NCBI GenBank assembly: GCA_963669155.1
Contig: OZ022588.1
Location: 14,267,835-14,331,834 of the forward strand
DNA from: Arbacia lixula
Taxonomy: Eukaryota > Echinodermata > Echinoidea > Arbacioida > Arbaciidae
Reading direction: 5' to 3'
Length of the DNA: 64,000 nucleotides
Made by a program: the position numbers and the translations under genes. This document shows positions 30,565 through 57,488 of this stretch, piece by piece; the stretch's first letter is position 1; each line of letters opens with the position of its first letter. A model generated the notes under the pieces. It was not told where the DNA came from, ran no database searches, and was given only the letters and a program-made list of their open reading frames with translations.

Positions 30565-33500
30565 ATGGATTTCTCTAGTATGCTCAGCGCCACCCTGATG
30601 ATTGTGGGTTTCGTGATTAGCTGCTCCAAGGGGCGTGACTTCTGGCTGCTTGTGGACTTCGTGGCTACATTGGCTTTCGGGTTGGCCTGTTATTTCACCC
30701 CTCACATTCTCCTAGGCTTTCAGGTAGGTCTAAAGGCCAGGCGGGCGCCATGATTTTTGCCACGATTCTAAGTACAGTCGTAAGGGTCTGCGACTTGAGA
30801 TATGACGTCACCCTTCTTACACAAATCCAATGACCTGGTACTGTGATTCAGTCAGTCGCAGAGTCGCACGACTGATTGGATCGTGTCGTCTCGGTGGCCT
30901 TTAATTGCAGGGTTTGAATCATGTTCTGTATGACATACTTCATATCTTGGTTCATCAAAACCTGACAATTTACATTGTTGAATCAGCATGGGCTCTGCTC
31001 GTTGCTCAACTTCCAACACTGTTCACCGTCTCGTCAGATACTTGCCGATAGATATCAAAGTACGGAAGCGTTAAGAGCCATTCGACTTGACGAAATATTC
31101 CATCTTGTCAAGTCGACTTAATATCCATATGGGATAAAGGCATCAGTTTATACATGAGTATTTACTATCATATGTTTCAGATTTTAGCTTATGCCTATAG
31201 TCCCCGCTGTCGTCCGATCCGTTCTTTAATTCACGATTATGCTTTTTGTATTTGAATATAAGTGTATTTTGCTGTGATTTAGTTTCAATGAATTTAATTT
31301 AAGTGAAATCAACTTAAATTCCTTCTATCAGACAAACGTGACTCTGGATGGAACTGTTGTGACGTACTATCGTGCCTTTGCCGCTTGCCTTCTTGGAGAC
31401 GCTGTATCCCGCTACACCCTCAGGGCATCCAAAGACAACACTGTTCTGGCCTTCCTATTCCTCACCCGCATCATCGTACGTGACATTCTGCCAGTCCAAC
31501 TCCATTCCCTAACAAGCATGATAACGATGATAATAATAATAATGATAGTCATTATAATGGTAATGATGATGCATCTGTAACGTGCATACCACATATGTCT
31601 CTATGCGAAATTGAAATACGGCAAGAAAAGAAAGAAACGTTAAAGACAGCCCGTCCATTTTTCAGATCACCACAAAACCATCGAAACATACGTAGTGTAA
31701 AATTCAAATAATGCACGTAAACAACGTCTGATTAATAGTTTGTGTTAAAATATATATCTATTGATTAATCTGTTTATTAAATGATAAAACGCATTATGAA
31801 AAAAAATGTTCTATAGAAGGAATCATCTGCAAAGTTTGCTAATTACTCATAGAATTAGGATTTCACACATGCATAACAACCACATAGATGCTGTAACAAA
31901 GACTAATACTTTTTTCGTAGTACGAAAAAAGTCGGTTTGAAATTCAACGGCTGAAATTTTTACATATAGAGAAAGCTTCAACATGCTATATTCTTAGAAA
32001 TGGTCTTGAATCACACTTTCTTCAATTTACGATCGTGATAGACGATTTCAAATGTTAAGCTTGTAAAAGGGACGGACAATCTTTAAGCTCTTATACATCA
32101 TGTACATTGTCGTAGTTTCCATACATACTGTCGAATACAGCAGTGGTGCCAACCCAGGAGAGTGAAGCAGAATAAGGAGCGTGAAAGGAGCATAATCTAC
32201 ACTACAGCTCAAAGGAATTGGCATAAGGAAAGGGAAAGGGAAGAAAGGGAAGGACCCGCAGTTTTAAACCGTGGTATATTTTGTCCAGTTCAGCATGACA
32301 CATGAGGCTTTTTAGCATCTAAAAATGCTTTTAAAAAATGCTAAAATGCTAAAGCATCGTGTTTCATGCTGAACTGGACAAAATAAACCGCGGTTTAAAA
32401 CTGCGGGTCCTTCCCTTTCTTCCCTTTCCCTTTACCCGTGCCAATTCCTATGAGCTGTAGTGTACAGTCAAACCTAGAGAAATACGAGGAATGTAGTTTT
32501 AATGAGCAGGTGGTCTTGATGTACAAGTGATTTTGATTTGCATTTCAATGAATAAAAAATTCCTGAAGGAAAATTTTAAAAATGTTGTCTTCATACATCA
32601 GATTTCATTGCATATTGCGAATAGTGATTATAGTTACCAAACAACAACATACACTTGACTAATGTCCTCATTGGAAACTAAATTTTTATAATTTTCATTT
32701 TCATGAGGAATTTTCATGCAAGTAAAAAAAATACCTCTATGGTGAAACATAATTACATGTATACAATTTGCAGAATCAGCCCCAATATGGCTGTAATTAA
32801 AATGTTGTAATCTTAATGTGTCTGCATGGTATTGACCCATTTGTCTTGGACCCGCTTGTCTCACTATTCTGTGTAACAGGGGAAAAACTTCTCCGTGTCA
32901 ATATCTCTTTCTTACACTACAGCTGAAAGGAATTGGCACGGGTAAAGGGAAAGGGAAGAAAGAGAAGGAGCCGCAGTTTTAAAGGTCCCCTGTCATCAAA
33001 ATGTATGTCGACTTATGTTGATGCAACATGATATGTACATAACAAAATCACTAATTGTTCAATGGAAATATATGTCCTATATCTTAAAATATTTTTTCTT
33101 TATTTTCTATCAGCACTGATAAGCCCCGCCTCCAAAATATCCTCCAACTCAAGATTCCCCCTGTGACATCATCAAATGGAGAAATTAGCAGGGTAATAAG
33201 CAGAATTTATGCACAAACTAAACATTGCAATGACTACCTCCAGCTGCCCACAAGAGCATCACATGTCTTCACACAATACCATCTAACAACCTTTCATGTT
33301 GGAATAATCGTTTCCTTATGTCAGAAATGTGCTAGCTATGTGATGCTATTGTAAGCACTTGCAGGTAGTCATTGCAATGTTCAGTTTGTGCATAAATTAT
33401 GTCCATTATCCTGCTAATTTCTATCTTTGATGATGTCACAGGGGGAATCTTGAGTTGGAGGATACTTTGGAGGCGGGGCTTACCAGTGCTGAGAAAAAAA

Positions 33501-36500
33501 TAGAAAAATTATTTTAAAACAGAGGAAACATATTCCCATTGAACAGTTAGTGATTTTGTTATATACATATTAAGTTGCATCAACAGAAGTCAACATATAT
33601 TTTGATGACAGGGACCCTTTAAACCGCGCTATATTTTGTCCAGTTCAGCATGAAACACGATGCTAATGGCCTAAAATGCATCATGTTTCATGCTGAACTG
33701 GGCAAAATATACCGCGGTTCAAAACTGCGGCTCCTTCCCTTTCTACCTTTACCCGTACCAATTCCTTTGACCCGTAGTGTATATCAAGGTGCGGTTCGTC
33801 GCTGTCGCTCACTGCCGTGCAGTTTGACGGGGGTGTTTTCCCGCTACGGCAAAGTAATAGGTAAAAAGTAGATTATGAAATTGTGATCCACTGTATCAGT
33901 TGAGGCCAGGAGAAACTCCTTGAAGGACCTGATAGAAGGATTATAATGGCATGCGGTGGCTGTAAACCGCGCTCTTGTCTAATTTTGAGTATTTTCTTGT
34001 CGCTCTTTTTCTCCCAGGGTTGTGCCATTCTCCTGGTTGCCATAGGGTACACCCAGTGGTTCGGAGGGGATGTCTGGAATGACAATGTAAGTATTGAGCG
34101 CCGGGTGCCACCATGAATCAATGGCCTTTAGCCAAAAGGGTTGCAGATCTTTAAAGGGCATATAAAAGGCCTTCAAAAGGTGATCGTAAGCAATCTTCTT
34201 GCCAAAGGTCTTAAATTCATGTATTGTCTATTTTAGGAACTTGCTGAAAGTTATTTGCTCTCAAATGATCAACGTTTGAAGTAATTAGTGAATAAACCCC
34301 AAATCCTGAAATTTTTCGTCCCGAACATATTGAGGATTTGTGATTTAATCGCTTTTTACTCCAAATGTGGATAATTTGAGGGCGAATGACTTTCAGTAAG
34401 TTTCTCAAATGGACAATACATGAATTTAACACCATTGGCAAGAAGATTGCTGACGATCACCTTTTGAAGTTTTTTTTTTTTGTCTTCCAAGTACAGTATA
34501 TGACCTTTAATGGAGTTGGTGCCATTCTAAGTCGAAATGATGGAGACTATCTCTTATGTGTAAAATGCTGCTCTTGCTTACAGATCATGAATATTCATAG
34601 TGTTGGAAGTCTTCTGCAATGGTTCTGGCTAAATGGAACGCTGACGAGGAAGGATTTCCCGTACATTCCCCGAGACGTCTCTATCAATAAATATTTGATA
34701 ACGCCAATATTACACCGAAAGATGTTGCATAAAGATGTAGCGTTAGCTAGGGTGAGGTATTTATTGTTTACAATATAATTTTGTTTCAGCCCTGTTCATA
34801 AAACACACCTTTCTATTCATGACCAGAAACATAAACCAGTGTAACTTTTTTAATCTTTAAGGGCAAATGAAGGGAGTATACATCAGTGCATGTTAAAGTC
34901 GGTAAGTCGGTAAGACGGAAAACATCATCAGGTAGAACTGTTCCGCCGGGGTGGCAGGTCCCGTTTTTGTTGTTAAAAGGTCTTCATCCTTCAGATAATG
35001 GCTTTATCATTTTGAGAATTCATTCGCGTGATCCTGTTCAATGTGAATGGGACCCGTCATCACGGAAGCAGAACTGTGCTGTCATTGTCAAGGTTCAAAC
35101 CGCTTTTTATCCGCCCGAGTTCACGAGCACTCCTCGAAACTAAGCGCAGTGAGTTGAGCGATGGCGCGATTGCCAGCCCGGAGAAAATTAATTTTCGTCT
35201 CGAATGTACTTTAATTTGGGCAGATAAAATGCGACCAGAGCCTACAGTACTCTGACGTGATCACGGGTCCTATTGTGATCTTATTCGATATTCCTTTAAC
35301 CCTTTGTGTGCCAGATAAATTCGTGCTCTTATATACATGGGGATTGTGTGAATTACTCGTGAAAAAGTCGCATTTGGCACCTAAGGACTTAACAACAGCA
35401 CATAGTCTTTTGCATGGTGGGTATCATGTTGTGAATAATGGGTAGTATCGTGTACACTGCCACAACCTGCCACACTGCACTTTGCTATTAATGCAACAAA
35501 ATAGAATCATCTAAAAAAGAATCTTTATTGTTTGACCTTTTCCCCCACAAAGCACATTTTCTTCGGCTTTTTAGGCAACCTGCTGTGGATGATGGGTAGT
35601 GTAGTCTACTACTACCAGGCCCGCTTCACGGGCGGCCATGTGCAGCTAGAGAGCCGACTCAACCTGCACCTGCGCCTGGACGCCTGTCTTATGCTGCTCA
35701 TCGGATGCACCATCTATGGCTTCCCAGATCTCTTCCTCACGATCCAGGTCAGAGCATGTCCCAAGAACCTGGCCCGCATTATAAAGACTTATAAAATCGA
35801 TCGTAAATCCAATGTCATCAATCAAATGTACATATATATAGTTGATATTGATATCAATCACAAGAAGAGTTGTGATCAGTCACAATTCTTTGTAAGGCAG
35901 AGCCCGGATAGTGAAGTTGTCAACAACCGCTAGGTCCACTTTCCAGACTTGACAGCTGATACATAAAAAAGTATACCGCGGTATATTTTCTCCAGTTAAG
36001 CATGAAACACGATGCTTCAGCCCAAAAATCATTATGTTCATGCTGAACGGGACAAAATATACCGCGGTTTAAAACTGCGGCTCCTTCCCTTTCTTCCATT
36101 TCACTTTCCCTATGTCAATTCCTTTGAGCTGTAGTGTATGCACTCCAGTGGAGTGGATGATCACCCTGTTATTTAGATCGAAACATGGGAGGATTTTCTT
36201 GCTTTGCCGCGATCGAAGGAACAACTCTAGCAACAAGTGGCGCGCGGCAGCGGCCAACTGCTTCCGTATGAATGTAGCCTGATGGATACAATGATTCTAG
36301 GACAACTACCCCCTGGAAAATCCCCCCCCCCCCCCCCCCCCCGGGTAGCTACCCTCCAGGCAACTACCCTGTTACACCCACAAATGTAATAATCGCCCAC
36401 AAATGTAATAACGCCCACAAATGTAATAACGCCCACAAATGTAATAACACTTTACCCACAAATGTAATAATTTCACCCACAAATGTAATAATGCACTTTA

Positions 36501-39500
36501 CCCACAAATGTAATAATTTTGAGCCACCCACAAATGTAATAATCACTTTACCCACAAATGTAATAATTTTTAGGGGATATTTTGTCGAATTTCTTAAAAA
36601 CTGAAACCCTGTACTGATGCATCGGTTTAGCGAGCAGTCTTTATTCCAGACCCAATTATAGGCCCGATCACCTTCTCTCTGTGGAATAACGTGAGAATGG
36701 AGTCTAGTCTTTCCTCCAGACCCGAAAATTTCAAAAATAAGAATGTCTTTTTTCCAGACCCAATAATTTCATTTTTGGAATCTTCAAAACCAAGGCCCGA
36801 TCGTCTTATTTTTTGTGGAATAATATGAGAATCGAGCCTAGTCTCTCCTCCAGACCCGATAATTTAAAAAAAAGAGCGTAGTCTTTTTCCAGACCCAATT
36901 TTTTCATTTTGTGAATCTTCAAAACCAAGGCCCGATCATCTGATTCCTGAGGGATAACCCGAGAATCGAGTCTAGTCTTTCCTCTAAACACGATTATTTA
37001 AAAAATGAGAGCCTAGGCTTTTCTCCAGACCCGTTTCATTCATTTTTTTAAATCTACAAAACCAAGGCCCCATCATCTCACTCCTGTAGAATAACATGAA
37101 AATTGAGTCTAGTCTTTCCTCCAGACCTGGTTATTTCAAAAGTAAGAGTTTAGTCTTTTCTCCAGACCCAATTATTTCATTTTTTTCAATTCTTCAAAAT
37201 CAAGACCCCGTCATCTTATTCTTATGAAATAACATGAGAATCAAGCCTAGTCCTTCCTCCAGACCCGATTATTTCCAAATTAAGAGCGTAGTCTTTTCTC
37301 CAGACGCAATTATTTCATTTTTTCAAATGTTCAAAACCAAGGCACCATTATATTTTTCTCGTGGAATAACATGGTAATCGAGCCTAGTCTTTCCTCCAGA
37401 CCCGAGTAGTTCAAAAATAAGAGCATAGTCTTTTTCCAGACCCAAATATTTCGTTTTTTTTAAATCTACAAAACCAAGGCCCTATCATCTTATTCTTGTG
37501 GAATAACATGAGAATCAAGCCTAGTCTTTCCTCCAGACCCGGTTATTTCAAAAGTAAGAGCATAGTTTTTTCTGCAGACCCATTCAATTAATTTTCTAAA
37601 TCTTCAAAACTAAGGCCCCATCATCTTATTCCTGTGGAATAAGATAAGAATCATTTCTAGTCTTTCCTAGAGCGTAGTCTTTTCTGCAGACCCAATTAAT
37701 TAACTTTCTAAATCTTCAAAACCGAGGCCCCATCATCTTTTTCCTGTGGAAAAATATGAGAATTGATTATAGTCTTTCCTCCAGACCCGGTTATTTTAAA
37801 AGTAGGAGCGTAGTCTTTTTTGCAGACCCAATTAATTAACTTTCTAAATCTTCAAAACCAACACCCCTTCATCTTATTACTGTGGAATAACATGAGAGTT
37901 TCTAGTCTTTCCTCCAGATCCGGTTATTTTAAAAGTTAGAGCGTAGTCTTTTATCCAGACCCATTTAATTAATTTTTGTACCTTACAAACTCAGACCACA
38001 TCATTAGATTCTCATGGAATCACATGAGGATCGAGCCTAGTAGTCTTTCCTTCAAACCCTGTTATTTCACAAATAAGTGCGTAGTCTTTTCTCCACAACC
38101 ATTTAATTCATTTTTGAAACCTTAAAAAATAAGACCATCATCATCTTATTCCTGTGGAATAATGTCAACATCTTCCAAACTAAGACCCTGACTGTGATAA
38201 ATCAAATGTTTAGAGCGAACTCTTTCCTTGTAATTGAAATTTAAAAACAAATCTTCAAAACTAAGATCCTATCAACTAATTCCGTTTTTTAAATAAAAAA
38301 ATACAATTCAAAAAGTCAAGCACTTTGAGCATGTACATAATGTGTATATAGCTCATTATAAATACTCATCATTATCGTCATCTTTTCTTGGCGATGCATA
38401 GCATCGCTTTACATTGTTACATATGTGGATACAACACGTCTCAGTGGTCGGCGGTCACACAAACTGACGAATCAGTCAAAATAGTACATATATATACTTG
38501 TATATATCGCACAGAGGTGGGACCGATTCGATGGTACGTTGACTGTCGACTATTCTTTTAATCATCTATGCCTATATTCTAATGGTCTTATTCAATGGTC
38601 GTTTAGAAACAAAGTAATTGGATAACTAAAATTTGGGCGATTCAAAATCATAACCTTTGTTGGTAAAGGGCGTTACTACGTTTGTGGTTGAAACTATTGC
38701 ATTTGTGGGTAAAGTGTTATTACATTTGTGGGAGTTATTACATTTGTGGGTGTCTCGTACACCCACAAATGTAATAACGCCGACAAATGTAATAAAACTT
38801 TACCTACATATGTAATAATTTCACCGACATTTGTAATAATGTTTTATGGTCACTAATTCGATTTCTTCTTTTTTCGACGACCATCGAAATCCAGGATATT
38901 TGTGGGCGATAGAATATTTCCATGATTAAAAAAAAAATCCGTCCATGATCAACGATCCATCACATCGGTTCCTCCTGTTTGTGTTATATGACCATTTGGA
39001 CTGATTCGTCAGTTCGTGTGACCACCGAACAATCATTTATTTGCGACGTGTTGTTCCACATTTATAACAATGTTAAGCGATGCCATGCATCGCCAAGAAA
39101 TGATGATGGCACTGATGAGTACTTAGAATGCAATAAATCCACCTTATGTAGATGCTCAAAGTATTTAATTGAAAAGAAAAAAGAAAAAACAAGAATGAGA
39201 TAATAGCCCAGCTAACAAAAAAGAAACGTGAATATATGCATACATACGCACACATGCATACATATACGCACACATACCCTAATCCTATACTTACCTATCC
39301 TAATCATTTCTTACCCTATCCTGCTCCTATCGTATTTTAACACCCTCACTAGTACTACGGCAATATGCTGTACAAAATATTGCACTCAATTAGGTGACAT
39401 AGGCATAGATGATTGAAAGAATCGAATCGGTCCCACCTCTGTGCGTTATATGCAAGTATATATATATATGTACTATTTTGACTGATTCATCAGTTTGTGT

Positions 39501-42500
39501 GACCGCCGACCACTGAGACGTGTTGTATCCACATATGTAACAATGTAAAGCGATGCTATGCATCGCCAAGAAAAGATGACGATAATGATGAGTATTTATA
39601 ATGAGCTATATACACATTATGTACATGCTCGAAGTGCTTGACTTTTTGAATTGTATTTTTTTTATTAAAAAAAACGGAATTAGTTGATAGGATCTTAGTT
39701 TTGAAGATTTGTTTTTAAATTTCAATTACGAGGAAAGACTACGCTCTAAACGTTTGATTTATCACAGTCAGGGTCTTAGTTTGGAAGATGTTGACATTAT
39801 TCCACAGGAATAAGATGATGATGGTCTTATTTTTTAAGGTTTCAACAAGATGAACAAGGCATTAGCAATATTGTGTCTCGCCCACTTGCGAAAATAACCA
39901 GAAATATCGCGATCTCCGTTGCTACGCAAAAGAATTGTATCCCTGGCTGATTGTGAAATATCTGCCATAGAATTTAACATTCCATAAATGAGAAGGGCTA
40001 TTTCACGCAATGCTACTTCCTCTATCTACTCCCCCTCCCCCACCTTCCCCCTTCTTTGAGATGGAATAAAAAGCCTCCACCAAGTTCTATTAGATTAGAC
40101 AAAGACAAAACAGGATGATAATCAGTTGCACAATAGTTGCACTGAAACAAACAAATAAGCAACTTTAAACAGACAACATCAAAATCAGGTGCAAAATAGT
40201 GACTTTGAATAAATTTGCATTAATGTGCATGAGTAATGTTTGCCTAAATCTACATCAGTAATGCTCACACATGCTCACAAAATTCTGTGCACAAGTTAGG
40301 AAGCCTTCACCAAGAGTCTTGCAAGTAAACTTTAATGTATGACCTCAAATGACCTTTGACCTTATCATGTGACCTCTTACAGCACAATAACATGCAGGTG
40401 CCCCCAGTGCATCCATCAGCCAAGTTTTATTGCCATTGTAGCAACATGTGATGAGTTATGTGTGATAAGAGAGTCTTGCAAGTAAACTTTAACGTATGAC
40501 CTCAAATGACCTTTGACCTTATCCTGTGACCTCCAACGGTACCATAACATGAAGGTACCCCCAGTGCATCTATGACCCAAGTTAGGTTGTAATCCAAGCA
40601 ACCTATGTGAAGTTATTTGTCAAAAGAGAGTCTTGCAGGTAAACTTTAACGTATGACCTCAAATGACCTTTGACCTTATCCTGTGACCTCCAACAGCACC
40701 ATAACATGAAGGTACCCCCAGTGCATCTATGACCCAGTTAGGTTGTAATCCAAGCAACCTATGTGAAGTTATTTGTCAAAAGAGAGTCTTGCAGGTAAAC
40801 TTTAACATAGAAAAAGAGAGTCTTGCACATACTCTTTAATATATGACCTCAAATGACCTTTGATATCATCACATGACCTCTGACAACACCATAACATGAA
40901 GATACCCCTAGTGCTTCTATCAACCAAGTGTGGCTGCCATTGCTGTAACAGTTGCCAAGTTATGGATCATAAGAGAGTCTTGCAGGTAAACTTTAACATT
41001 TGTGACGGACGACGGACGACGGACGGACGACGGACGGACGCCATTTTGATCCCTTAGTCTCGCCTTCACCTCCGGTGGGCGAGACAAATATGAATTAAAT
41101 GGGTGTGGAGAAAAGAATACGCACTTATTTGTGAAATAACAGGGTTTGAAGGAAAGACTACAGGCTCGATCCTCATGTTATTCCATGAGAATCTGATGAT
41201 GTGGTCTGAGTTTGTAAGGTTCAAAAAAAAATAATCGGATCTGGAGGAAAGACTAGAAACTCTCATATTTTTCCACAGGAATAAGATGATGGGGCCTTGG
41301 TTTTGAAGATTTAAAAAGTTAATTAATTGGGTCTGCAGAAAAGACTACGCTCTAACTTTTAAACTAACTGGGTCTGGAGGAAAGACTAGGCTTGATTCTC
41401 ATGTTATTCCACAAGAATAAGATGATAGGGCCTTAGTTTTGCAGATTTAGAAAATTAATTAAATGGGTCTGCAGAAAAGACTATGCTCTTACTTTTGAAA
41501 TAACCGGGTCTGGAGGAAAGACTAGGCTTGATTCTCATGTTATTCCACAAGAATAAGATGATAGGGCCTTGGTTTTGCAGATTTAGAAAATTAATTAAAT
41601 GGGTCTGCAGAAAAGACTATGCTCTTACTTTTGAAATAACCGGGTCTGGAGGAAAGACTAGGCTTGATTCTCATGTTGTTCCACAAGAATAAGATGATAG
41701 GGCCTTGGTTTTGCAGATTTAAAAAAAAAAAATAATAATTGGGTCTGGAAAAAGACTACGCTCTTATTTTTGAACTCCTCGGGTCTGGAGGAAAGACTAA
41801 GCTCGATTACCATGTTATTCCACAAGAAAAATATAATGGGGCCTTGGTTTTGAACTTTTGAAGAATTGAAATAATTGCGTCTGGAGAAAAGACTACGCTC
41901 TTAATTTGGAAATAATCGGGTCTGGAGGAAGGACTAGGCTTGATTCTCATGTTATTTCATAAGAATAAGATGACGGGGTCTTGATTTTGAAGAATTGAAA
42001 AAATGACATAATTGGGTCTGGAGAAAAGACTACACTCTTACTTTTGAAATAACCAGGTCTGGAGGAAAGACTGACTCAATTTTCATGTTATTCTACAGGA
42101 GTGAGATGATGGGGCCTTGGTTTTGAAGATTTAAAAAAATGAATGAAACGGGTCTGGAGAAAAGCCTAGGCTCTCATTTTTTAAATAATCAGGTTTAGAG
42201 GAAAGACTAGACTCGATTCTCGGGTTATCCCTCAGGAATCAGATGATCGGGCCTTGGTTTTGAAGATTCAAAAAATGAAAAAAATTGGGTCTGGAAAAAG
42301 ACTACGCTCTTTTTTTTAAATTTTTGGGTCTGGAGGAGAGACTAGAGTCGATTCTCATGTTATGCCACAAAAATAAGACGATCGGGCCTTGGTTTTGAAG
42401 ATTCCAAAAATGAAATAATTGGGTCTGGAAAAAAGACTACGTTCTTATTTTTGAAATTTTCGGGTCTGGAGGAAAGACTAGACTCCATTCTCACGTTATT

Positions 42501-44317
42501 CCACAGAGAGAAGGTGATCGGGCCAATAATTGGGTCTGGAATAAAGACTGCGCGCTATACCGATGCATCAGTACAGGGTTTCAATTTTGAAGAAATTCGA
42601 CAAAATATCCCCTAAAAATTATTACATTTGTGGGTAAAGTGATTATTACATTTGTGGGTGGCTCAAAATTATTACATTTGTGGGTAAAGTGCATTATTAC
42701 ATTTGTGGGTGAAATTATTACATTTGTGGGTAAAGTGTTATTACATTTGTGGGCGTTATTACATTTGTGGGTAAAGTGTTATTACATTTGTGGGCGTTAT
42801 TACATTTGTGGGTGTACATACCCCCCCCCACACACACACACACACACACACACACCCAGGACAACTGCTCCCACGCAATTACCCCCAGGACAACCACTAA
42901 ATGTTGTGTCCTTAGTTTCATAGTACTCTCTGTTTGGGATATATTAAATTTGTTTATTTAAATAATTTAGATTTCTTATGAATTTTGGGGGTAGTTGTTC
43001 GGGGGAGGGGGTAGTTGTCCTTTGGGGTAATTTTCCTGGGGTAGATGTCCTGGGGGGTAGTTGTCCTGGGGGTAATTGTCCTGGGGGTAGTTGCCCTAAG
43101 GGGGTAGTTGTCCAGGGGGTAGTAGTCCGGGGGTAGTTGTCCGGGGGGTAGTTGTCCGGGGGTAGTTGTCCGGGGGGTAGTTGTCCAGGGGGTAGCTGTC
43201 TGGATACGGGATACAATATCACTTTGATGTTATTTACAGACTGCACAGTACCCATCTTTACCCGTTGATTATCTCTCGTATCACCCATTGCAGACGACTC
43301 TTGCGGCCTTTAACCCTGTCCATCTGCACGAGGCTCGCTCCGTTGGGGCGCTGCTCATCAGCTCCGGCATTCTGAGCTTCTTGGCCCCAGCTTTTCTCTT
43401 CACCGGGGACAAGCGAACCATCCTCCTCGGCCGTCTCGTGGTGGGTAGTAGGGCGAGATGTAGCATTGTGTCATAGCTGTCCCTAGAAATTAGCCTCATC
43501 AACATACTTTATTAGTTTACAAATCGCACACCTTCTTTCGGCTCATGTCATGAGACCAAAAGTGCAATATTGTATCATACACGATACATCGAAATCACTT
43601 TCAGACGACTTCCACAAGTTCGTCCCGGCTGGGGCCTATGGCATGGCGGGCTAAAAGCGAATCTATATAATTTAGTGGCCCCTTTATCTTTCTATTGCAT
43701 CTTCAATCTTGACTACTAATCAATTATTCATATTTGCTCGGTTCATAATCGATGAATTGGCAATTTATGGTAGACCCATTATTCATGTCAGAATCGCTTT
43801 TCTGTCGTGATGACCGGTGCTGTTCTTATTTGATTTGACCAATATTTTACACCAAATCGTTACGAGGCAATTCCTTTACGTACACTGAAATCAAACGTTA
43901 GGATGGTTCTGTCGTGTGCTCACTATTGCACATTCCCTTTAACCCTTACATTACCAGGCCTTGAGCCCCCATATTGGCTTTCTCCATATTTTCATGTCAA
44001 TGGAAATGAGAGAGTAACCCTTATATTTCCAGGCCTGGAAACCCCCCTTGACTTACTACATAATCGTTTTCATGTCAATGGTAGTGAGAGAATTATAGTG
44101 TTTGATGTGTCATGACTGTTTTACTGTAAACATAGTAACTGTTCCCATGCAGAAAGTGGCGCTAACGGTGCTCGGGGTGCTCTATGCCTGCTGGACAGAT
44201 GAGGCGTGGGGAGGCAACCTCCCCCTCTACCTGTTGATGGAGACTACGGTGTTTGTCAACGCGTTCCTGGGATACTCCTCCCCCCACGAGCAGGGGCGCG
44301 ACGAAAGGAGCGACTGA
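30565..44317 (+). CDS. gene A: multi-pass membrane protein with two homologous halves, unknown function
   Basis: Coding exons: 30565-30723, 31332-31475, 34018-34086, 35553-35747, 43294-43440, 44153-44317; 292 aa, all introns phase 0 with GT..AG borders. The first coding exon begins at an acceptor (AG at 30533-30534) with 30 bases of leader, so a non-coding exon lies upstream. About eight or nine hydrophobic helices are visible and no signal peptide, so an integral membrane protein is inferred. Motifs: SCSKGRDFWLLVDF, TNVTLDG, GDAVSRYTLRASKD, QWFGGDVW, SVVYYYQARFTGGHVQLES, NPVHLHEARSVGALL, GDKRTILLGRLV, LYACW, LLGYSSPHE-like end (FLGYSSPHEQ). I do not recognise the family with confidence. Residues 31-142 and 152-280 look like diverged copies of one four-helix unit. 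Gene B, 6 kb downstream, is a paralogue. Candidate poly(A) signal AATAAA at 45673-45678. Confidence 0.87.
32200..32462. mobile_element. TA-flanked palindromic MITE (CACTACAGCTC family), copy a
   Basis: CACTACAGCTCAAAGGAATT ... GAGCTGTAGTG between TA dinucleotides (32198-32199 and 32463-32464). Inside, GTCCAGTTCAGCATGA faces TCATGCTGAACTGGAC, and GTTTTAAACCG faces CGGTTTAAAAC. TA duplication and CA-starting ends fit a Tc1/mariner-type MITE. In gene A intron 2. Confidence 0.85.
32915..33779. mobile_element. TA-flanked palindromic MITE, copy b, carrying a nested TTAA element
   Basis: CACTACAGCTGAAAGGAATT ... GACCCGTAGTG between TA at 32913-32914 and 33780-33781. The element at 32983-33618 is inserted at the TTAA of its GTTTTAAACCG motif. 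Without it this copy would be about 225 bp, like the others. Gene A intron 2. Confidence 0.85.
32983..33618. mobile_element. TTAA-flanked palindromic MITE, copy 4, nested
   Basis: AGGTCCCCTGTCATCAAAAT ... ATGACAGGGACCCT, with TTAA at 32979-32982 and 33619-33622. Outside sequence CCGCAGTTTTAA and TTAAACCGCG joins perfectly into the uninterrupted CGCAGTTTTAAACCG found in other copies of the host MITE (for example copy g), which proves a TTAA duplication. Confidence 0.9.
34168..34478. repeat. 310-bp palindromic element in gene A intron 3
   Basis: Left arm CCTTCAAAAGGTGATCGTAA, CAATCTTCTTGCCAA, AATTCATGTATTGTC faces right arm GACAATACATGAATTTAA, TTGGCAAGAAGATTG, GATCACCTTTTGAAG. Loop around 34310-34330. 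Begins 80 bp after the exon 3 donor. No ORF of known type. Confidence 0.8.
35297..35385. repeat. small TAACCCTT-ended element, copy 2
   Basis: TTAACCCTTTGTGTGCCAG ... GCATTTGGCACCTAAGGAC, an imperfect inverted repeat resembling 8717-8809. Tentative. Confidence 0.35.
35972..36136. mobile_element. TA-flanked palindromic MITE, copy c (left end missing)
   Basis: Enters the family at ACCGCGGTATATTTT and runs to the intact right end GAGCTGTAGTG followed by TA at 36137-36138. Gene A intron 4. Confidence 0.8.
36373..42816. mobile_element. giant 6.4-kb fold-back element with tandem-repeat arms (TU/Foldback-like), gene A intron 4
   Basis: Left arm about 36373-38545 and right arm about 39416-42816 are reverse complements of each other; the right arm holds an extra insertion (39846-41090), without which both are near 2.17 kb. 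The outer part of each arm is a minisatellite of the core CCCACAAATGTAATAA with variable 2-7 bp spacers (about nine cores). The middle part is tandem units of about 120-130 bp with CTAGTCTTTCCTCCAGACCC, GCGTAGTCTTTTCTCCAGAC and AAAACCAAGGCCC. The inner part is unique sequence (TTGGCGATGCATAGCATCGC region). The loop, 38546-39415, contains a smaller palindrome of the same 16-bp core centred near 38757, and a third, diverged copy of the inner-arm sequence at 38979-39200. Arms are diverged, so this is not a simple assembly mirror. Architecture matches Foldback/TU elements as I know them; no transposase seen. Confidence 0.85.
39846..41090. mobile_element. TGTCTCGCC-ended element with about 158-bp tandem units, inserted in the fold-back right arm
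   Basis: Interrupts the arm between GGTCTTATTTTTTAAGGTTT and ATGAATTAAATGGGTGTGG; the left arm at about 38090-38125 shows the unbroken site. Left end contains TTGTGTCTCGCCCAC, right end GTGGGCGAGACAAA. From about 40311 come four to five units of about 158 bp starting GAGTCTTGCA.GTAAACTTTA and carrying TGACCTCAAATGACCTTTGA. They end in a GACGGACGACGG minisatellite near 41003-41040. Exact borders are uncertain by about 20 bp at the left. Confidence 0.7.
42820..43200. repeat. (CA)n and GGGGGTAGTTGTCC minisatellite flanking the fold-back
   Basis: After the fold-back come a C-run and (CA)n at about 42821-42856. About 42990-43200 is then a minisatellite of about 14-17 bp, GGGGTAGTTGTCC. The inverse form GGACAACTACCCCC is present at about 36299-36315 just left of the fold-back, next to a long C-run (36320-36342). 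The fold-back may therefore have landed in, or carried, this minisatellite. The array ends 90 bp before gene A exon 5. Confidence 0.75.
43935..44095. repeat. short dispersed repeat (CCAGGCCT..AAA type), tandem pair
   Basis: Two units of about 80 bp sharing TTACATTACCAGGCCTTGAG / TTATATTTCCAGGCCTGGAA and TTTTCATGTCAATGG. They are inverse relatives of 18522-18620. They lie immediately upstream of the acceptor of gene A exon 6. Confidence 0.5.
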
Positions 44318-45670: not shown

Positions 45671-45672
45671 TG

Positions 45673-45678: not shown

Positions 45679-45699
45679 GTTTTATTTGTAATTTTCAGT

Positions 45700-48865: not shown

Positions 48866-48871
48866 GCCAGG

Positions 48872-49741
48872 TACGGAAGCTTAAACGTGCAGCGCGAAGG
48901 CGAGTTGTTCAACTCGCCAAGGCGCCTTGTTTCGGCAAAAAAGGCGAGAAGGCGACTTGTACAAACTCGCCAAGGCGCCTTGTTTAAGACGAGAAGACGA
49001 GAAGGCGACTTGTACAAACTCGCCTAAGCGCCTTGTCTAAGACGAGAAGGCGAGAAGGCGACTTGTACAAACTCGCCAAGACGCCTTGTTTAAGACGAGA
49101 AGACGAGAAGGCGACTTGTACAAACTCGCCTAGGCGCTTTGTCTGATAAGAGAAGGCGAGAAGGTGACTTGTACAAACTCGCCTAGGCGCTTTGTCTTTG
49201 ATGAAAAGGCGTCTAGGCGACTTGTGCAAACTCGCCAAGGCGCCTTGTTTTAGACGAGAAGGTAATAAGGCGACTTGTACAAACTCGCCTATAGGCGCTT
49301 TGTCTTTGATGAGAAGGCGTCTAGGCGAGTTTGTACAAGTCACCTTCTCGCCTTCTCGCCTCAGACAAGGCGCCTTGGCAAGTTTGTATAAGTCGCCTTC
49401 TCGCTTTCTCGTCTTAGACAAGGCGCCTAGGCGAGTTTGTACAAGTCACCTTCTCGCCTTCTCGTATCAGACAAGGCGCCTAGGCGAGTTTGTATAAGTC
49501 ACCATCTTGTCTTCTCGTCTTAGACAAGGCGCCTTGGCGAGTTTGTACAAGTCACCATCTCGCCTTCTCGTCTTAGACAAGGCGCCTTGGCGAGTTTGTA
49601 TAAGTCACCTTCTCGCCATCTCGTCTTAAAAAGGGCGCCTTGGCGAGTTTGTACAAGTCGCCTTCTCGCCTTTTTTGCCGAAACAAGGCGACTTGGCGAG
49701 TTAAACAACTCGCCTTCGCGCTGCACGTTTAAGCTTCCGTA
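48872..49741. mobile_element. 870-bp GC-rich fold-back element with about 62-bp tandem units, GCCAGG duplication
   Basis: TACGGAAGCTTAAACGTGCA at the left faces TGCACGTTTAAGCTTCCGTA at the right, with GCCAGG at 48866-48871 and 49742-49747. Each arm (about 430 bp, centre near 49315) holds about six units of about 62 bp containing GGCGACTTGTACAAACTCGC and AAGGCGCCTTG. Both cores are themselves nearly palindromic. ORFs of 60-145 codons occur in several frames on both strands with motifs such as GDLYKLAKAPC; their repetition in all frames shows they are products of the repeat. Confidence 0.85.
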
Positions 49742-49816
49742 GCCAGGCCCGTTGGGGCGTTCATTCCCCAAGGCCAAAGTCGAGGAAAGCTAAATCGGCA
49801 GGTATCACCGTCTCAT

Positions 49817-50025
49817 TCTGGGTATTCTTTAATCGAATTGCATTTCTGGACAGTCTAGGCCAAGTTCAGACCGAAAATTAAGTCACTGTGGGTCGTTGGA
49901 TCCGCTGAGATTGCATCTATCTGGCTCCTCTAAACGCCCTGGCCCGGGTTTGTCATGTGTGTAAAAAAATGTCCCGGGTAAACGTTTCATAACCGGGCAT
50001 TTTTTAATTGAAATTTTTGGACATA
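49817..50025. repeat. inverted-repeat element (GGGTATTCTTTAATCGAATT) next to MITE copy d
   Basis: GGGTATTCTTTAATCGAATT..TTTCTGGACA at the left is mirrored by CCGGGCATTTTTTAATTGAA..TTTTTGGACA in inverse form at the right, around a centre containing GTTGGATCCGCTGAGATTGC. The same GGATCCGCTGAGATTGCATC block plus one end also sits inside copy d (about 50155-50270). Confidence 0.5.
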
Positions 50026-50393
50026 CACTCCAGCTCAAAGGAATTGGTAAGACATAGGGAAAGAGAAAGGGAAGGAGGCACAGTTTTAAACTACGGTACA
50101 TTTTGTCCAGTTCAGCATGAAACATGATGCTTTAGCCTAAAAAGAGGCATTTTTCATAGACCGAAAAATCAGTCTCTATAGGACGTTGGATCCGCTGAGA
50201 TTGCATCTGCTCCTCTGAATGTCCAAAAATGTCATTTTGATTAAAGAATGCCCCCGAATAAGACGGTTATTCCTGTCTACATTTTTCATGTTGAACTGGA
50301 CAAAAAATTCCGCAGTCATGGCAGTTTGAAATTGCGAGTCCTTCCCTTTCTTCCCTTTCCCTTCCCCTTTGCCAATTCCTTTGAGCTGTAGTG
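50026..50393. mobile_element. TA-flanked palindromic MITE, copy d, with internal foreign block
   Basis: CACTCCAGCTCAAAGGAATT ... GAGCTGTAGTG between TA at 50024-50025 and 50394-50395. The middle is enlarged by about 110 bp related to the neighbouring element at 49817-50025. It ends 60 bp before the acceptor of gene B's first coding exon. Confidence 0.8.
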
Positions 50394-50472
50394 TATGTAA
50401 TGTTTCGTTTTTGCATTCATGAAAATATTCATCGTTCTAGTTTTTCATTGCAGACGATAGACCCGAGCTACC

Positions 50473-53400
50473 ATGGACCTCTCTGACATCGACCTGCCTA
50501 TCCTCGTCAGTGGCAGCCTGATGGTTCTGGGCTTCCTGATTGGCTGTTCCCGGGGGCGTGACTTCTGGCTGTTTGTGGACTTCTTGGCTACGGGGGCTTT
50601 CGGGTTGGCCTGGTACTTCATTCCCCATATTCTCCTAGGTTTTCAGGTACGTGTACACTACATCTCAAAGGAATTGGCATAGGGAAAGGGAAGGAGGCGC
50701 AGTTTTAGACCGTGGTATTTTGTCCAGTTCAGCGTGAAACGCGATGCTTTAGCCTAAATTTATATTTCATGTTGAACTGGACAAAATATACCACAGTTTA
50801 AAACTGTGGCTCCTTCCCTTTCTTCCCTTTCCCTATGCCAATTCCTTTGAGCTGGAGTGTAGGTCTGTGGAGTTACAGAGATTGAACTGTATTTATCTGG
50901 CCAGTTTATTAGGCACCATTTTTAGGGTCAACCTGGATGCAAACATTTCAAGTTTTGTAAGATGTTGAAATATATGATTTTGAATTCCCAAGAATGTGAA
51001 TTTAATTGAATACAGTATAATGCCAGAGCTGAACTCAACCCCAAATATCTAAAAACAAAAATGGTAAGCCTGAGTCATATCAATTTTTTCAGGAACCGGT
51101 GTTCGAAGGCTTTGCGCCGATCGAACATCGATGCATCGACGGTACATTGACAAATTGTGCACAATGGAGAGGGGTCGTATATATATTTTGCTATACATGT
51201 CATCCAGCCACTGCCAAGAGCCAATTTATGAATGAAAATACAGTAAGCATGCGCAGTGCAAGCCTTCTGTAGCGTCTATTGCAACGTGCACAAAGTCAAT
51301 GGGCTTCCGGGTTTTGGACAATGTGACCGGATATCGTTATTGCTATCGATACTTCCGCATGCACATGGTCATGACGTGATCTACGCGATGCACCAATCAG
51401 GGGTCACCGAATCGCTTGTGCGGAGACGCTCTTTCACATCATGCTATCTGCGTTGTACACAGTCTTACGCACGATCGCCACGTGCAATGCAATGGAGTCT
51501 GACAAGATCAGTGTTTCCTTTAAAAAAAAAGTAAGCCTAACAATAATCCTTATCTCACACCTCATCCCTTTTGCCTCATCAGACAAACGTGACCCTGGAT
51601 GGCACCCATCTGACTTACACCCGTACATTTGGCGCTTGCATGATTGGAGATGCGGTGTCCCGCTACACCCTCCGATCCTCCAAGGACAAGACCGCTCAGG
51701 TCTTCCTACTCCTCTCCCGCATCATCGTAAGTAGAAATATCTACCTGATTCCCAAGCATAATCCATTCAAAACTGAAGTAAAATGTACACATCTATAGGG
51801 AAAGGGAAAGGGAAGGGCCTGCAGTTTTAAACCGCGGTATATTTTGTCCAGTTGAGCATGAAACACGATGCTTTTTAGGCTAAAGCATCTTGTTTCAAGC
51901 TGACCTGTACAAAATATACAATGGTTAGAAACTGCGACTCCTTCCCTTTCTTCCCTTTCCCTTTACCCGTTCCAATACATTTGAGCTGTAGTGTACCTGA
52001 TTCCCAAGCATAATCCATTCAAAACTTAAGTAAAATGTATGGTATCTTAATACTAAATTTTGGTTGAGTTGTAATAGACCAATGTAATAAGGGGCCCATT
52101 ATCATTGGCATGGACATCGCTGAAGCCTGCTGGAGACGGGGAAAAGGTCCACCCCAAAATCGAACATGTTTGAGTTTACGGTGACCGTCTGGAGACGTGG
52201 CTAGTCTCCAGAAGATATCGCAGGCATTCCATCTCCTTCAGGTCCCCAGTGAGTTATCTACTATACTCATTGCTAAGGAATCATCATTCTGCAGATATAT
52301 GCAGCCTGCACCCAGGACTTGCTGATATGTCAGTGTTTTACAGAATTGTAAAAATTTTAAAATTTTAAAATTGTATATATTTGGTCCATTTAAAGATACA
52401 TATATGGAAATTCATTTTGCTCACATGATAAAAATGATAAAAAATATCTCCCATTGAACATACAAACAAGCTCATTTTTACAGATTAATTGACAACATCA
52501 TACATACAATGTACTACTACAGTGAAATTAAACATAAACATTCCAAGTCAAACCAATGGGTTTATGTAAAATGACAAATAATGGCAGGTTTTACATAAAA
52601 CAAACTGGTGTTATATCATACATACTATCGTGCAATAATGTAATATTAATGTACAATTGAATTAAATAGTTATCGTACAGTGAAATATTGATTAGGTCCC
52701 TTTAAAATAGTGAAATGCATTGATATACCGTTACAAATATTCCAAGTGAACTCGGCATGACTAAGGAAGTAGTATTGTAATGTGATTATATCTACAAAAG
52801 GGATACAGCGTATTTCAATGTGGGGCATATAAATTGGACTGTTGTGGCCAACAACAAAATGTTTTTAGGTATGAATGTGTTGGTTCATAAAATCTAGAAT
52901 TACACTCTATTCAGTTTATGTTGGAGGAACATACAGCATGTCTTAAGGTAAATATCTCACTCTAATCGTTTGCTATTCTTCTTGTCATGCTCTCTTCCAG
53001 GGTTGCACCATTCTTCTGGTTGCCATGGTGTACTCCCAGTGGTTTGGAGGTGATGCCTGGAGCCAGAATGTAAGTTTGAGAAATACTTGTGTACAAGTAT
53101 GAGGTGGTCTGTCAATGCAAGTTCATGCAAAAACATAGCTGATAAATGCACGGTGACACCATCTATTTTTTCACTCAAATTTCATTATGATCCAATGATC
53201 CATTATAGAGAAAGATGTAGTAATAGATTTTCATTAAATTGCTCGTTATGACGTCACTGTCATGTGATGACCTTGAAAAGCTTATTTCAATAACAATTTA
53301 TTAATACTAAGAAGTGACAAAAGTTTCAATAAAAATGATCGAGGCAATTATGAGTTATGCAGAAAACAAAAAATGAGCTTGGAATAAAAATAAATAATGA

Positions 53401-56400
53401 AGAGAAAGAAAATTCTGACGAAATTAAGAGGTGATCTGTCGATTGCGACAGACCACCTAATTATGTGTGGGGTGGGAACATTCATGTCAAAATTAACTCA
53501 AAGAGCCTAATCATCTCAAAGTAAATAATTGTTGAAATTAAAAGAAATCTGGACTCGTAGATGACGGCAGAATAGTTGGGCTATGATTTTAGCCTGTAGA
53601 GATTACCACAACTACCCTTCACCTTTTTGAAACACTGCTGCACCCATGAAGAGATGTGTAAAGCATCCTATTCGATTGTTTTAATGTAAACAGCATATTT
53701 TCTTGTGCACAGTATGGGCAGTGTAGTTGACTTCGTCTAGTCCCGTTGCTTATCGGAAGGCGCTTCTCAATTTGGTGTTAAACCGGACAGGCAAGGCTGC
53801 ATTCAGTCTAGAGTCGTAAAAAAGGAATTGTTCTTACCGGTACTTTTTTTTTCCCTCGCCACAGCACATCTTCTTCGGCATGGTCGGCAACCTGCTGTGG
53901 ATGATGGGTAGTGTAGTCTACTACTACCAGGCCCGCTTCACGGGCGGCCATGTGCAGCTAGAGAGCCGACTTAACCTGCACCTGCGCCTGGACGCCTGTC
54001 TTATGCTGCTCATGGGATGCACCATCTATGCTTTCCCAGATTGTCCCCTCAAGGTTAAGGTGGGTGTTACATCAAGGTGCTGTGGTATATCAAGATTCCT
54101 GAAGTGTAACATCATATAATTATGAGCATATGTTGTGAAGACAAAGGAAACTGGTTCTGAATTGTGTGGGTAGAGCAAACGGCAATGATCACACCTGGGA
54201 CTTTCCTCAGGAGTGGCCAACACCTGCCCACGAGACAATGTTGGACCAGTCGAACTCTATCTTGAGGGGCGTTGTTTAGAACCAAAAACCTGAATAACAA
54301 TGCATATATACAGTATGGCAATACAACTTCAGTACTCATAGTGGTTGATAACTGTAACTGAAGGCTGTGTGGTGTGTATAGGGATCAGGGAACAAATTTT
54401 GCAGGTGTTCTTGTCAGGCCTGATGTCATAAAATTGCTGAACTCTGTTTTGTATTAATGATGGACTCTGTTGTTGTTTGTAGGGTCACATTCTTGCATTG
54501 GGGAACTAAAGCACCAAGAGTCCATGTGCATTTGTTTTCTCTGATAGGGATGTAACACTGCATCATTTTGTGTAGCTAGTGAAAGTTTTCTGAATGATTG
54601 CTGACTAAACAGCCATTCGCTCACTATTTGTGAGCCACCGATTATTTTTGTGTCAGAGATGAGCAAAAACAGTGAACGGTGAAATGAAGAACACCTATCT
54701 AATTGAAGCTTTTATAACAGTTACTCTCTATTTTACCTACTTCTTTTACTTGACTATAAGTGTTTGAATGTAAAGCAAAAACCGTCCATGTAGGTTTTCT
54801 GCTGTTATCAATCAAAACTGCATTGAAATTGAGGTGAAACGAAAGAGAAGTCTTCTTTTTCATAATGAATTACTGCATTTTAAATGTCAAACCCATGGTC
54901 ATAATCTCCGCAGTACACAAGACACATTGTTGTTGCAAGTCCCCCAAATAAAAACAAAAGTAACCCTAGGTGACCAATCATTCTTTTGTGCAGCTCCTAG
55001 ATTGTGGAATAAACTACCTGTAGACATCAGGAAATCTAAAAAATTAGACAGCTTTAAATCAAAGTTGAAAACCTATTTGTTCGAAACATAGACCTAATTT
55101 ACTTCTGACCATGATTTAAAATTATATAGCATTATGTAGTAGAAGTGCATATAGAAGCTCTTGCAGCGCAGTAGAATATATAAGTTTCTGCGCCCTATAA
55201 ATGATTTAATATTATCATTTATTATTCCTGAATGTGATTGTGCATCCTAGTTCTCTCCTTTCCAAGATTGTCGCTGCACAATTTCAAACTAAATACTGTA
55301 TGTAGGTCTTCTCTTTAAATCAATAAATACTGCATTGAAATTAAATTGCAACCCAAGAAAAAGTTATTTCTTAGAGAGAATGATTTGAATGCATACTGAT
55401 CAGACTATTGTCATGATGATGTCAACAACATCTTCATGGTGACCCCCTCCACATTTTCCCTCCTTCCTTCCTTCCCTACAGAAATGTGGTAAATTGCATT
55501 CGGGAATGATAATAACCTTTTTACATGAACTGCTCGATACGTATATGACACTGAAGTGTTGGTAGTGTCGTTTATTTCTCATCAATCAATCAATCAATCC
55601 TTCCCTGCAGACCACACTGGAGACCTTTGACCCCGTTCACCTGCACATGGTTCGCTCCGTCGGGGCGATGCTCATCGGCTCCTCCATCCAGAGCTTCCTG
55701 GCACCGGGCTTCCTCTTTGACTGGGACAAGCGTGCTGTCCTCCTCGGACGTCTTGTGGTGAGTGCAACTAGACAGTGCCTCGGCAAACCTTTTGTAAATT
55801 CTTAGAAGGGAACTACAGTCAAACCTGTCTTAGTTGCCACCTGTCTATAGCAGCCAACATGTCTATACAGGGTGTCTAAAAAAGAAACTATACACTTTTG
55901 AAATGGCTGCCGAATAAAAAATATTGATTCTGGGGAAAATGATGTACATGATTGGAAAGCTTATGGTCTCAACTTTCATCTGACACCAAAACTTTCAAAA
56001 ATAATTCTTGCTTGAATGAGCACTGCTCACTTTTGTAAAGGGTATGAAGAATTAAGCTGCGCAGGAATTAGCCTTTCAATTTTGTGAGAGGTTGAATATT
56101 CAATTGAATATTCAAATCAATATTCATTCAAATACATTTTGTTGAAAAAGAAAAGGAATGTCTCAGCTACTGGCTGCCTATTCTTTAGGTTATCCATTGA
56201 GGTAAAGAATAAATTGCCAGCATCTTTTTTCGACAACCCATAATTGAATGTTCAACCTCTCGCAAAATTGGAACTATATAACTGTATATATCTATGAATA
56301 TCCTAAACTGATTATGTTGCCAATTCCCGGAAACAACAAAGTCATCCTGTAGATTGCTATGAACAATTGAACAAATCTGCTTCTTGGGTTGTATATTCTG

Positions 56401-57488
56401 CAAGAATGCACTGGAGACGGTTGCCCTTATCATTGCTGTTGATGGACATAGAGCACAGGATTGACAGAGATTGACATTCCTATGTAGGCTTAGAGATGCC
56501 ACTGGCACACGGCAACTGGCAAAATCATACCCCATTGCTTACTGAGAGTAGAACATGTACTGATCCGCAATGTCAGATTCTGAAAGGTCACACCAACGGA
56601 TATTGAAAGAAACATGATATCATGCTGTTTTCATCGTAAAATAGAAGCCATCGTAATACTTTTACATGAGCCCAAACAAGCAAGATTTAAAATAAAATGT
56701 CCCATGAATATCAGACAACCTCAGCAATACATATCAGAGATCTATTCACAAATAAGTAGCTGTTATTCAACTTACATCTTTCTTGGTGACAGTGTCTGGA
56801 GACATCGTTATATTTATCGAGCAAACAATACACAGTTGTTAGTGCTCTGTGGCAATGCAGGTCAGGACAGGTCAGGGTATAAAATGATGCAAAAAAATGA
56901 ATGAAGTTAACCAAAATCTAGATCCTGGCTATGATGGCAGAACACTTCTAGCGTAATGGTGGCCCTTTATTGTTACCGCTACTACCTCGTACTTATCAAC
57001 CCCTTACCACATGCACAGTTTGTCACCAGTACTGTACATACACTACAGCTCAAAGGAATTGGCATAGGGAAAGGGAAAGGGAAGGAGCCGCAGTTTTAAA
57101 CCGAAGTATATTTTGTCCAGTTCAGCATGAAACATGATGCATTTTAGGCTAAAGCATCATATTTCATGCCGAACTGGACAAAATATACCGCAGTTTAAAA
57201 CTGCGGCTCCTTCCCTTTCCCTTTCCCTATGCCAATTCCTTTGAGCTGTAGTGTACATCCCACAAAGCAGCATTTTTACCTGGCACAAGAAGAGCAAACA
57301 GATATTTTGTTTATTTCTGCTTGCAGACGCTCCTTGCCACCGTGCCATGTGCACTCTATGCCTGCTGGAACTACAAAGAGTGGGGCAACAACCTGCACGT
57401 TTCCCTGCTCCTAGAGACTGGAGTGATTCTCAACGCCCTCCTGGGCTATTATGCACCCCACGAGACTGAGCGCTACAAGGGGAAATAG
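50473..57488 (+). CDS. gene B: multi-pass membrane protein with two homologous halves, paralogue of gene A
   Basis: Coding exons: 50473-50646, 51583-51726, 53001-53069, 53865-54059, 55611-55757, 57327-57488; 296 aa, six exons with the same borders and phase 0 as gene A. Acceptor AG at 50452-50453 precedes the ATG by 19 bases, and the leader GATAGACCCGAGC matches gene A, supporting the start. Helices lie at roughly residues 9-26, 33-57, 68-88, 95-122, 130-152, 168-189, 205-229, 235-257 and 265-286. Half 1 (about 36-153) and half 2 (about 172-288) align: LTYTRTFGACMIGDAVSR with LHMVRSVGAMLIGSSIQS, and RIIGCTILLVAMVYSQWFGG with RLVTLLATVPCALYACW..WGN. Function unknown; the helix pattern and SVVYYYQ suggest remote kinship to TP53I11, which I could not test. 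Expression next to gene A may be independent, since each has its own leader exon. Confidence 0.89.
50656..50859. mobile_element. TA-flanked palindromic MITE, copy e, 9 bp after the gene B exon 1 donor
   Basis: CACTACATCTCAAAGGAATT ... GAGCTGGAGTG between TA at 50654-50655 and 50860-50861. The exon ends at 50646, so only GTACGTG separates the splice junction from the TA. Confidence 0.85.
51788..51993. mobile_element. TA-flanked palindromic MITE, copy f, with 46-bp flanking duplication
   Basis: The right end GAGCTGTAGTG is intact; the left end lost about 20 bp (CAC then ATCTATAGGGAAAGGG). Instead of only TA, a 46-bp segment starting TACCTGATTCCCAAGC and ending AAAATGTA is present on both sides (51742-51787 and 51994-52039) with one mismatch. 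Begins 61 bp after the exon 2 donor of gene B. Confidence 0.85.
52040..52980. other. gene B intron 2 remainder, nothing recognised
   Basis: AT-rich DNA with TTTTAAAATTTTAAAA-type runs near 52350; no element boundaries or ORFs that I can support. Confidence 0.5.
54834..55225 (+). mobile_element. 5'-truncated non-LTR retrotransposon tail (ORF2 C-terminus plus 3' end)
   Basis: An open frame of 85 codons (54834-55091) has the layout typical of the end of reverse transcriptase proteins of CR1/L2/Rex1-like LINEs: a LRST motif, then the FFCAAPRLWNKLPVDIRKSK signature and a FKSKLKTYLF ending. After the stop, about 130 bp of short 3' tail (GCGCCCTATAAATG) ends in a TTTA/ATT-rich run. No endonuclease or polymerase domain remains, so it is a dead 5'-truncated copy in gene B intron 4. 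Confidence 0.75.
55579..55600. repeat. (ATCA)n tract in the 3' splice region of gene B exon 5
   Basis: CATCAATCAATCAATCAATC precedes CCTTCCCTGCAG directly, so the branch-point region of this intron is a microsatellite. Confidence 0.75.
55867..56290. repeat. possible DNA-element fragment with short inverted repeat (gene B intron 5)
   Basis: ACAGGGTGTCTAAAAAAGAA resembles a transposon end. Farther in, TTTTGTGAGAGGTTGAATAT (about 56090) faces ATTCAACCTCTCGCAAAATT (about 56245). No transposase frame recognised; tentative. Confidence 0.35.
57041..57253. mobile_element. TA-flanked palindromic MITE, copy g (cleanest copy)
   Basis: CACTACAGCTCAAAGGAATT ... GAGCTGTAGTG, 213 bp, TA at 57039-57040 and 57254-57255. 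AATTCCTTTGAGC at the right mirrors the left end, and the arms pair almost throughout with a loop at the TGCATTTTAGGCTAAAGCA region. Sits 73 bp upstream of the gene B exon 6 acceptor. Confidence 0.9.

Follow-up and report, generated by a model that had tools for sequence, protein, structure and literature searches.

Two described families come closest to the genes considered here. TP53I11 (PF14936) is the p53-inducible protein 11, and it is induced by p53. The human protein has a single four-helix unit, preceded by an N-terminal tail some 60 residues long. DUF4345 (PF14248) is found in bacteria and is also a single unit. TP53I11 raises the calcium (Ca2+) of the endoplasmic reticulum (ER) and slows HeLa proliferation (PMC11719883); that study gives no molecular mechanism. 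The subject here is a window of 64,000 nucleotides from Arbacia lixula (contig OZ022588.1, positions 14,267,835 to 14,331,834; window positions are used below). It holds a tandem pair of genes, A and B, each coding for a membrane protein with two similar halves. We argue that the best explanation of the whole is that A and B are paralogous nine-helix proteins, each made of two fused units of the TP53I11/DUF4345 type, and we put its probability at roughly 0.7. New here is that a profile of the four half-repeats (A4) resembles both TP53I11 and DUF4345 beyond nearly all shuffles and beyond 161 decoys.

Gene models and the internal repeat

The two genes lie on the forward strand, and the span 30565-57488 begins precisely at the ATG of A and ends with the stop codon of B. 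Gene A (30565-44317) has six coding exons and encodes 292 amino acids. Gene B (50473-57488) also has six and encodes 294, and the proteins are 69% identical. With the stop included, the exons hold 53/48/23/65/49/55 codons in A and 58/48/23/63/49/54 in B. The length of each coding exon is divisible by 3, and all ten coding introns are GT-AG introns in phase 0. Exon 1 of A (30565..30723, 53 codons) starts in a gccATGG context, codes for transmembrane helices TM1 and TM2 and ends at the donor CAG/gtaggt; its protein identity to B is 64% (tblastn). Exon 2 (31332..31475, 48 codons) holds the loop with an NVT sequon, TM3 and the start of TM4, and exon 3 (34018..34086, 23 codons) the remainder of TM4. 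Exon 4 (35553..35747, 65 codons) codes for TM5, a loop and TM6, and seems to have been homogenised with its counterpart in gene B. Exon 5 (43294..43440, 49 codons), the counterpart of exon 2, carries TM7 and the start of TM8. Exon 6 (44153..44317, 54 codons and the stop), the counterpart of exon 3, carries the remainder of TM8 and TM9. In B, exon 1 (50473..50646, 58 codons) has an accATGG start and again codes for TM1 and TM2. It is followed by exon 2 (51583..51726, 48 codons), exon 3 (53001..53069, 23 codons), exon 4 (53865..54053, 63 codons, the other partner in the apparent homogenisation), exon 5 (55611..55757, 49 codons) and exon 6 (57327..57488, 53 codons and the stop).

The start context is good in both genes. 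Acceptor-like stretches 5' of both ATGs, judged by eye, suggest a 5' untranslated exon. When exon 4 is excluded, the ratio of nonsynonymous to synonymous divergence (dN/dS) of A against B is 0.34, so purifying selection has acted on the pair. Protein B was also searched against the whole genome to which the window belongs (607 Mb in 590 contigs, the window's contig being labelled C13). A and B account for 12 of its 13 matches, and these counts are a lower bound. The 13th match (E 0.5) was taken as noise.

With a simple hydropathy scan, nine segments appear in A and eight in B; the scan misses TM3 of B and sets TM3 of A somewhat early, inside the sequon loop. On the basis of the alignment we read nine helices in both, with TM1 as an extra helix and the units as TM2-5 and TM6-9. 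A preliminary description of this stretch, made from the letters alone, had seen a duplication of four helices. The two four-helix units stand, but a total of eight helices does not, as TM1 lies outside the repeat. The number of helices per unit is even, so the two units would be parallel and not inverted. In protein A the tail and the loops after TM1, TM3, TM5 and TM7 hold two or three lysines or arginines, and the other loops none or one. This alternation between loops is clearest in A; in B, two are also present in the loop before TM7. The sole N-glycosylation sequon is NVT (N55 in A, N60 in B), and it would be placed in the first outside loop.

We consider it nearly certain from the alignments that A and B contain an internal repeat. 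Half 1 and half 2 align over four helices with about 20% identity, as against 69% between A and B. Fifteen columns are identical in all four half-repeats: L7, D10, G18, Y22, P25, T33, R46, A50, L76, R78, Y91, W94, W100, N103 and Y122. The two homologous halves claimed for both proteins in the preliminary description are borne out by alignment, shuffles and hhalign. The two pairs of peptides that it quoted as similar are each aligned by Smith-Waterman and also by MAFFT, and the profile check of half against half that it proposed gives P 7.1e-5 and probability 63 in hhalign with two sequences per side.

Shuffles that keep the helix layout match the score of half against half in 3, 0 and 0 of 2000 cases for three of the four pairs. 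Half 1 of A against half 2 of B falls short of significance by itself (213 and 268 of 2000 with two kinds of shuffle). This pair speaks against a repeat, and one can imagine from it that two hydrophobic halves are alike merely by chance. That explanation does not sit well with the joint test, in which aligned columns were shuffled together. The joint half-repeat score is 221 against 116.6 +- 13.4 and is reached by 2 of 60,000 shuffles (Gumbel p 3.8e-5). Chance would also have to produce the 15 invariant columns and two intron positions in common, and we regard it as very improbable.

The exon structure of the halves is also worth considering. The exon starting TNVTL has 48 codons and the exon starting TTL has 49, both with phase 0 borders, just as had been claimed. 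A Smith-Waterman alignment of the halves of A, which is blind to introns, puts the exon 1/2 border opposite the 4/5 border and the 2/3 border opposite the 5/6 border. Both introns of half 2 coincide with intron columns of half 1, and the chance of this is about 4e-4 if placement is uniform. The third intron of half 1 is unpartnered, and the last exon of half 2 continues through. The best reading is an internal duplication followed by a tandem duplication, because A and B each carry both halves, because the halves differ far more from each other than A does from B, and because the introns of half 2 share the columns of half 1. These points support the exon-block duplication and subsequent tandem gene duplication that had been proposed.

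Probable kinship of the unit with TP53I11 and DUF4345

The proteins had been assigned to an unnamed family. This fits, since no family was above its cut-off in Pfam (searched with A, B and the four halves), NCBIfam or PHROGs (both searched with B). Among solved structures (PDB) none is better than E 1 with B or with the profiles A4 and A3, the best match of the profiles being E 1.3. Searches of viral contigs, genome contigs and phages gave nothing useful, and searches of the open-licence literature gave nothing on the A/B family among the matches listed. The absence of a name holds, but the unit does not stand alone: profiles tie it weakly, though in a single register, to TP53I11 and DUF4345.

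What pointed to TP53I11 is a pattern in which a helix ends with (F)P, a short acidic loop follows and the next helix opens with R..GA. The units of A and B have a four-helix core in the same order as TP53I11, with (F)P after the first helix, the acidic loop, R..G at the second helix and an aromatic end of the fourth helix. A and B differ from it in having two units behind one helix. The human TP53I11 sequence used here scores 317 bits to PF14936, so we take it as good, and it also matches DUF4345 at E 0.0023, below the cut-off. A4 against this sequence scores 22.5 over 112 columns, and none of 400 helix-preserving shuffles is as high (maximum 20.4). Against the human sequence paired with that of the urchin's own genome, the score is 23.7 over 111 columns and 1 of 500 shuffles is as high. 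The decoys are 161 single-sequence windows from 19 E. coli membrane proteins (20 genes listed). Their maximum is 18.2, over 22 columns, and A4 scores 22.0 against the single human sequence and 20.4 against the single one from the own genome. In hhalign the four-half profile thus has the four-helix core in the TP53I11 register, over 95-112 columns.

The own genome has its TP53I11 orthologue on another contig. A search of the whole genome with PF14936 gives three weak matches, of which contig C17 carries two (E 0.039 and 0.15, below the threshold). The orthologue lies at C17:3625001-3643500 (loci L018 and L019) on the minus strand, in six collinear stretches, and five of these joined give 83.6 bits to PF14936, for which the cut-off is 27. 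Its core introns, as read from GT-AG choices, interrupt TM1 in phase 0 and both TM2 and TM3 in phase 1. Each unit of A and B has phase 0 introns after the first helix and within the third helix, so that the places and phases differ. None of the introns of the own TP53I11 match, and A and B are therefore not recent copies of it. Either the split would be old or the introns would have turned over.

DUF4345 was sampled from bacterial genomes with a match at E 0.001, which are 7 of 18 in one set and 37 of 200 in another, one genome being in both. Thirty-eight loci were read and the short L108 and L109 were excluded, leaving 36. A4 against these 36 scores 21.6 over 59 of 125 columns, which none of 300 shuffles and none of the 161 decoys reach (decoy maximum 18.3). 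Profile A5 combines 24 of the 36 with the own TP53I11 (25 rows). A4 against A5 has P 2.1e-4 and probability 46 over 71 columns; with A5, too, no solved structure is better than E 1. Half 2 alone aligns with DUF4345 over 103 columns, and this is reached by 1 of 300 shuffles and by no decoy. For the single halves no shuffle equalled score and length together. TP53I11 against the DUF4345 profile has P 3e-6 and probability 88, in a comparison that had no shuffle control. PF14248 has no match in the own genome to E 10.

Like A and B, DUF4345 has GL....P followed by R..GG/GA. R46 and A50, identical in all four halves, fall at this second motif, with R46 aligned to the R of DUF4345. The register is constant across all comparisons: GL..P, then R..GA. 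An acidic residue in the last helix of DUF4345 also resembles E268 in half 2 of A. The differences are that DUF4345 is a single unit, that it has GR in the third helix, and that A and B are not listed for PF14248 in Pfam. An arginine of the third helix common to DUF4345 and the A/B unit was considered and rejected; R78 of the repeat is about nine residues nearer to R46 than the R of GR and does not align with it.

Several results count against this kinship. The decoy control for DUF4345 is slightly uneven, in that the decoys are single sequences and A4 is a profile of four rows. The alignments of A4 to DUF4345 and to A5, with their 59 of 125 and 71 columns, cover about the first two helices only. 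Half 1 alone aligns with DUF4345 over 94 columns, a result reached by 10 of 300 shuffles and by 8 of the 161 decoys. When this half is set by itself against the own TP53I11, 2 of the 161 decoys do as well. Half 2 by itself does no better against TP53I11 than decoys, 85 and 95 of 161 being as high, so the TP53I11 signal is owed mostly to half 1 and to the halves combined. Plain Smith-Waterman against TP53I11 is weak: of 3000 shuffles, 245 score as high for A1, 54 for B1, 2413 for A2 and 456 for B2 (gene and half), and the kinship therefore rests on profiles. A and B lack the third-helix GR motif of DUF4345, whose R is present in at least 90% of the 25 rows of A5. The gene structure of TP53I11 is not conserved either, the intron positions of the own orthologue being unused by A and B. 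Neither PF14936 nor PF14248 is listed for A, B or the four halves in Pfam scans to E 10, in which most weak matches were dropped by HMMER's filters. Finally, 15 bacterial genomes, of which seven have DUF4345, were searched with the A4 profile, and none of the five matches (best E 0.19) lies at a DUF4345 locus.

Given these points, one could argue that the repeat is real and the unit forms a separate four-helix family, its likeness to TP53I11 and DUF4345 being a convergence of hydrophobic helices. The likeness includes a P that ends one helix and an R..G that opens the next, set on hydrophobic helices. There is no Pfam match to either family and no retrieval at DUF4345 in the 15 genomes, half 2 against TP53I11 is at decoy level, the plain alignment is weak, and the genome has its own TP53I11 gene with different introns. 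All of this is what convergence would lead one to expect. However, it does not explain why shuffles that keep the helix composition (0 of 400, 1 of 500 and 0 of 300) and 161 membrane windows fall short of the four-half profile, or why every comparison has a single register. We argue that convergence is unlikely, though it is the rival to take seriously, and that distant kinship of the A/B unit with TP53I11 and DUF4345 is quite probable on these comparisons, supported but not proven.

The unit could also belong to another known membrane family, such as EamA or DUF2157. EamA/DMT proteins (PF00892) are drug/metabolite transporters built of duplicated helix bundles, and in this they are like A and B. 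DUF2157 is the strongest of the weak Pfam matches (E 0.0061, 16.7 bits against a cut-off of 32.4, with a first-pass model of B). EamA matches half 2 of B, one of the four halves, at E 0.038 and 14.7 bits, below its cut-off of 28.2, and YndJ matches half 1 of A at E 0.038. Every one of these matches is below its cut-off and each is in a single sequence, and DUF2157 is not listed for the corrected halves. The repeats of EamA/SMR proteins are inverted, whereas those of A and B are parallel by helix count. We give this assignment hardly any weight.

Exon 4 and the surroundings of the genes

Exon 4 differs from the rest of the pair. Among fourfold sites, 1 of 27 differs between A and B in exon 4 and 29 of 81 in the other five exons. 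The synonymous divergence (dS) is 0.138 in exon 4 and 0.44-1.16 in the rest. Exon 4 has 28 consecutive identical codons, a run that none of 20,000 permutations reach (maximum 21). The stretch in which A and B are alike begins about 15 bases before exon 4 and ends before the end of the exon. On the simplest reading, gene conversion has recently homogenised A and B in exon 4 and in no other exon. Alternatively, this exon may be strongly constrained in its RNA or DNA.

A degenerate copy of the 5' portion of exon 4 sits in intron 3 of gene A (35393..35462, forward strand). This copy is 70 bases long, lies about 90 bases upstream of exon 4 and has an in-frame stop in the tblastn frame. It is nearer to the exon of B (53 of 69 bases, E 1e-9) than to that of A itself (52 of 72). 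This copy may be the remnant of a former or duplicated exon 4.

The introns and flanks hold several repeats. Intron 4 of gene A contains a large palindromic element of about 6.4 kb (36414-42771), whose arms are opposed tandem units of about 137 bp that are up to 98% complementary. A second foldback element (48872-49741) has 53-bp tandem units in two 425-base arms, which are 90% complementary with 20 bases between them. A dispersed family of about 165 bases, partly self-complementary, is present in both orientations around genes A and B. Its copies are at 33618-33785, 32195-32464, 32913-32983, 35972-36139, 50020-50157, 50280-50396, 50654-50861, 51798-51995 and 57038-57259. Intron 4 of gene B has an open frame at 54774-55088 for which Pfam at E 0.1 found nothing; we take it by eye to resemble the C-terminal end of a long interspersed nuclear element (LINE) reverse transcriptase. 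Upstream of gene A, the gene for the Rab geranylgeranyltransferase beta subunit has exons at approximately 8088-21126, for which the best solved chain has E 1.8e-111. Elsewhere in the assembly, mitochondrial COX1 (contig C590, locus L144) was set against a consensus. ATA stands in it where the consensus has Ile (five positions) or Leu (one), AAA where it has Asn (two) and TGA where it has Trp (six), which is the echinoderm mitochondrial code.

Proposed history and meaning

The history we propose would begin with a single four-helix gene with two phase-0 introns, which doubled. A helix would then have been added in front of the doubled unit, the whole gene would have been duplicated in tandem, and exon 4 would later have been overwritten from the other copy. 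A and B would each be TM1 plus two four-helix units of the TP53I11/DUF4345 type in a head-to-tail fusion. Together the two units would form a covalently joined pseudo-dimer, in which the N-terminus and the NVT sequon face the outside (lumenal) and the C-terminus the cytosolic side. They may pack side by side round an intramembrane Asp repeated in TM2 and TM6 and an Arg repeated in TM4 and TM8; these residues could pair in a salt bridge or else line a path. The weakest step in this scenario would be a location in the ER or another endomembrane, with a TP53I11-like role in ER ion or lipid balance. A TP53I11-like endomembrane function of A and B is doubtful in our judgement. We are just as tentative in suggesting that A and B are natural fused dimers and that uncharacterised TP53I11/DUF4345 proteins would act as side-by-side dimers in the ER membrane.

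The exchange at exon 4 would be a clear example of a conversion tract with sharp limits between diverged twins, one that keeps a single loop-and-helix segment nearly identical in A and B. If the proposed relationship is true, the two units could be mutated separately, and this could reveal how TP53I11 acts on ER calcium. A doubled relative that kept its exon history would connect a tumour-related protein of animals with a bacterial family. It would also predict a dimeric working unit.

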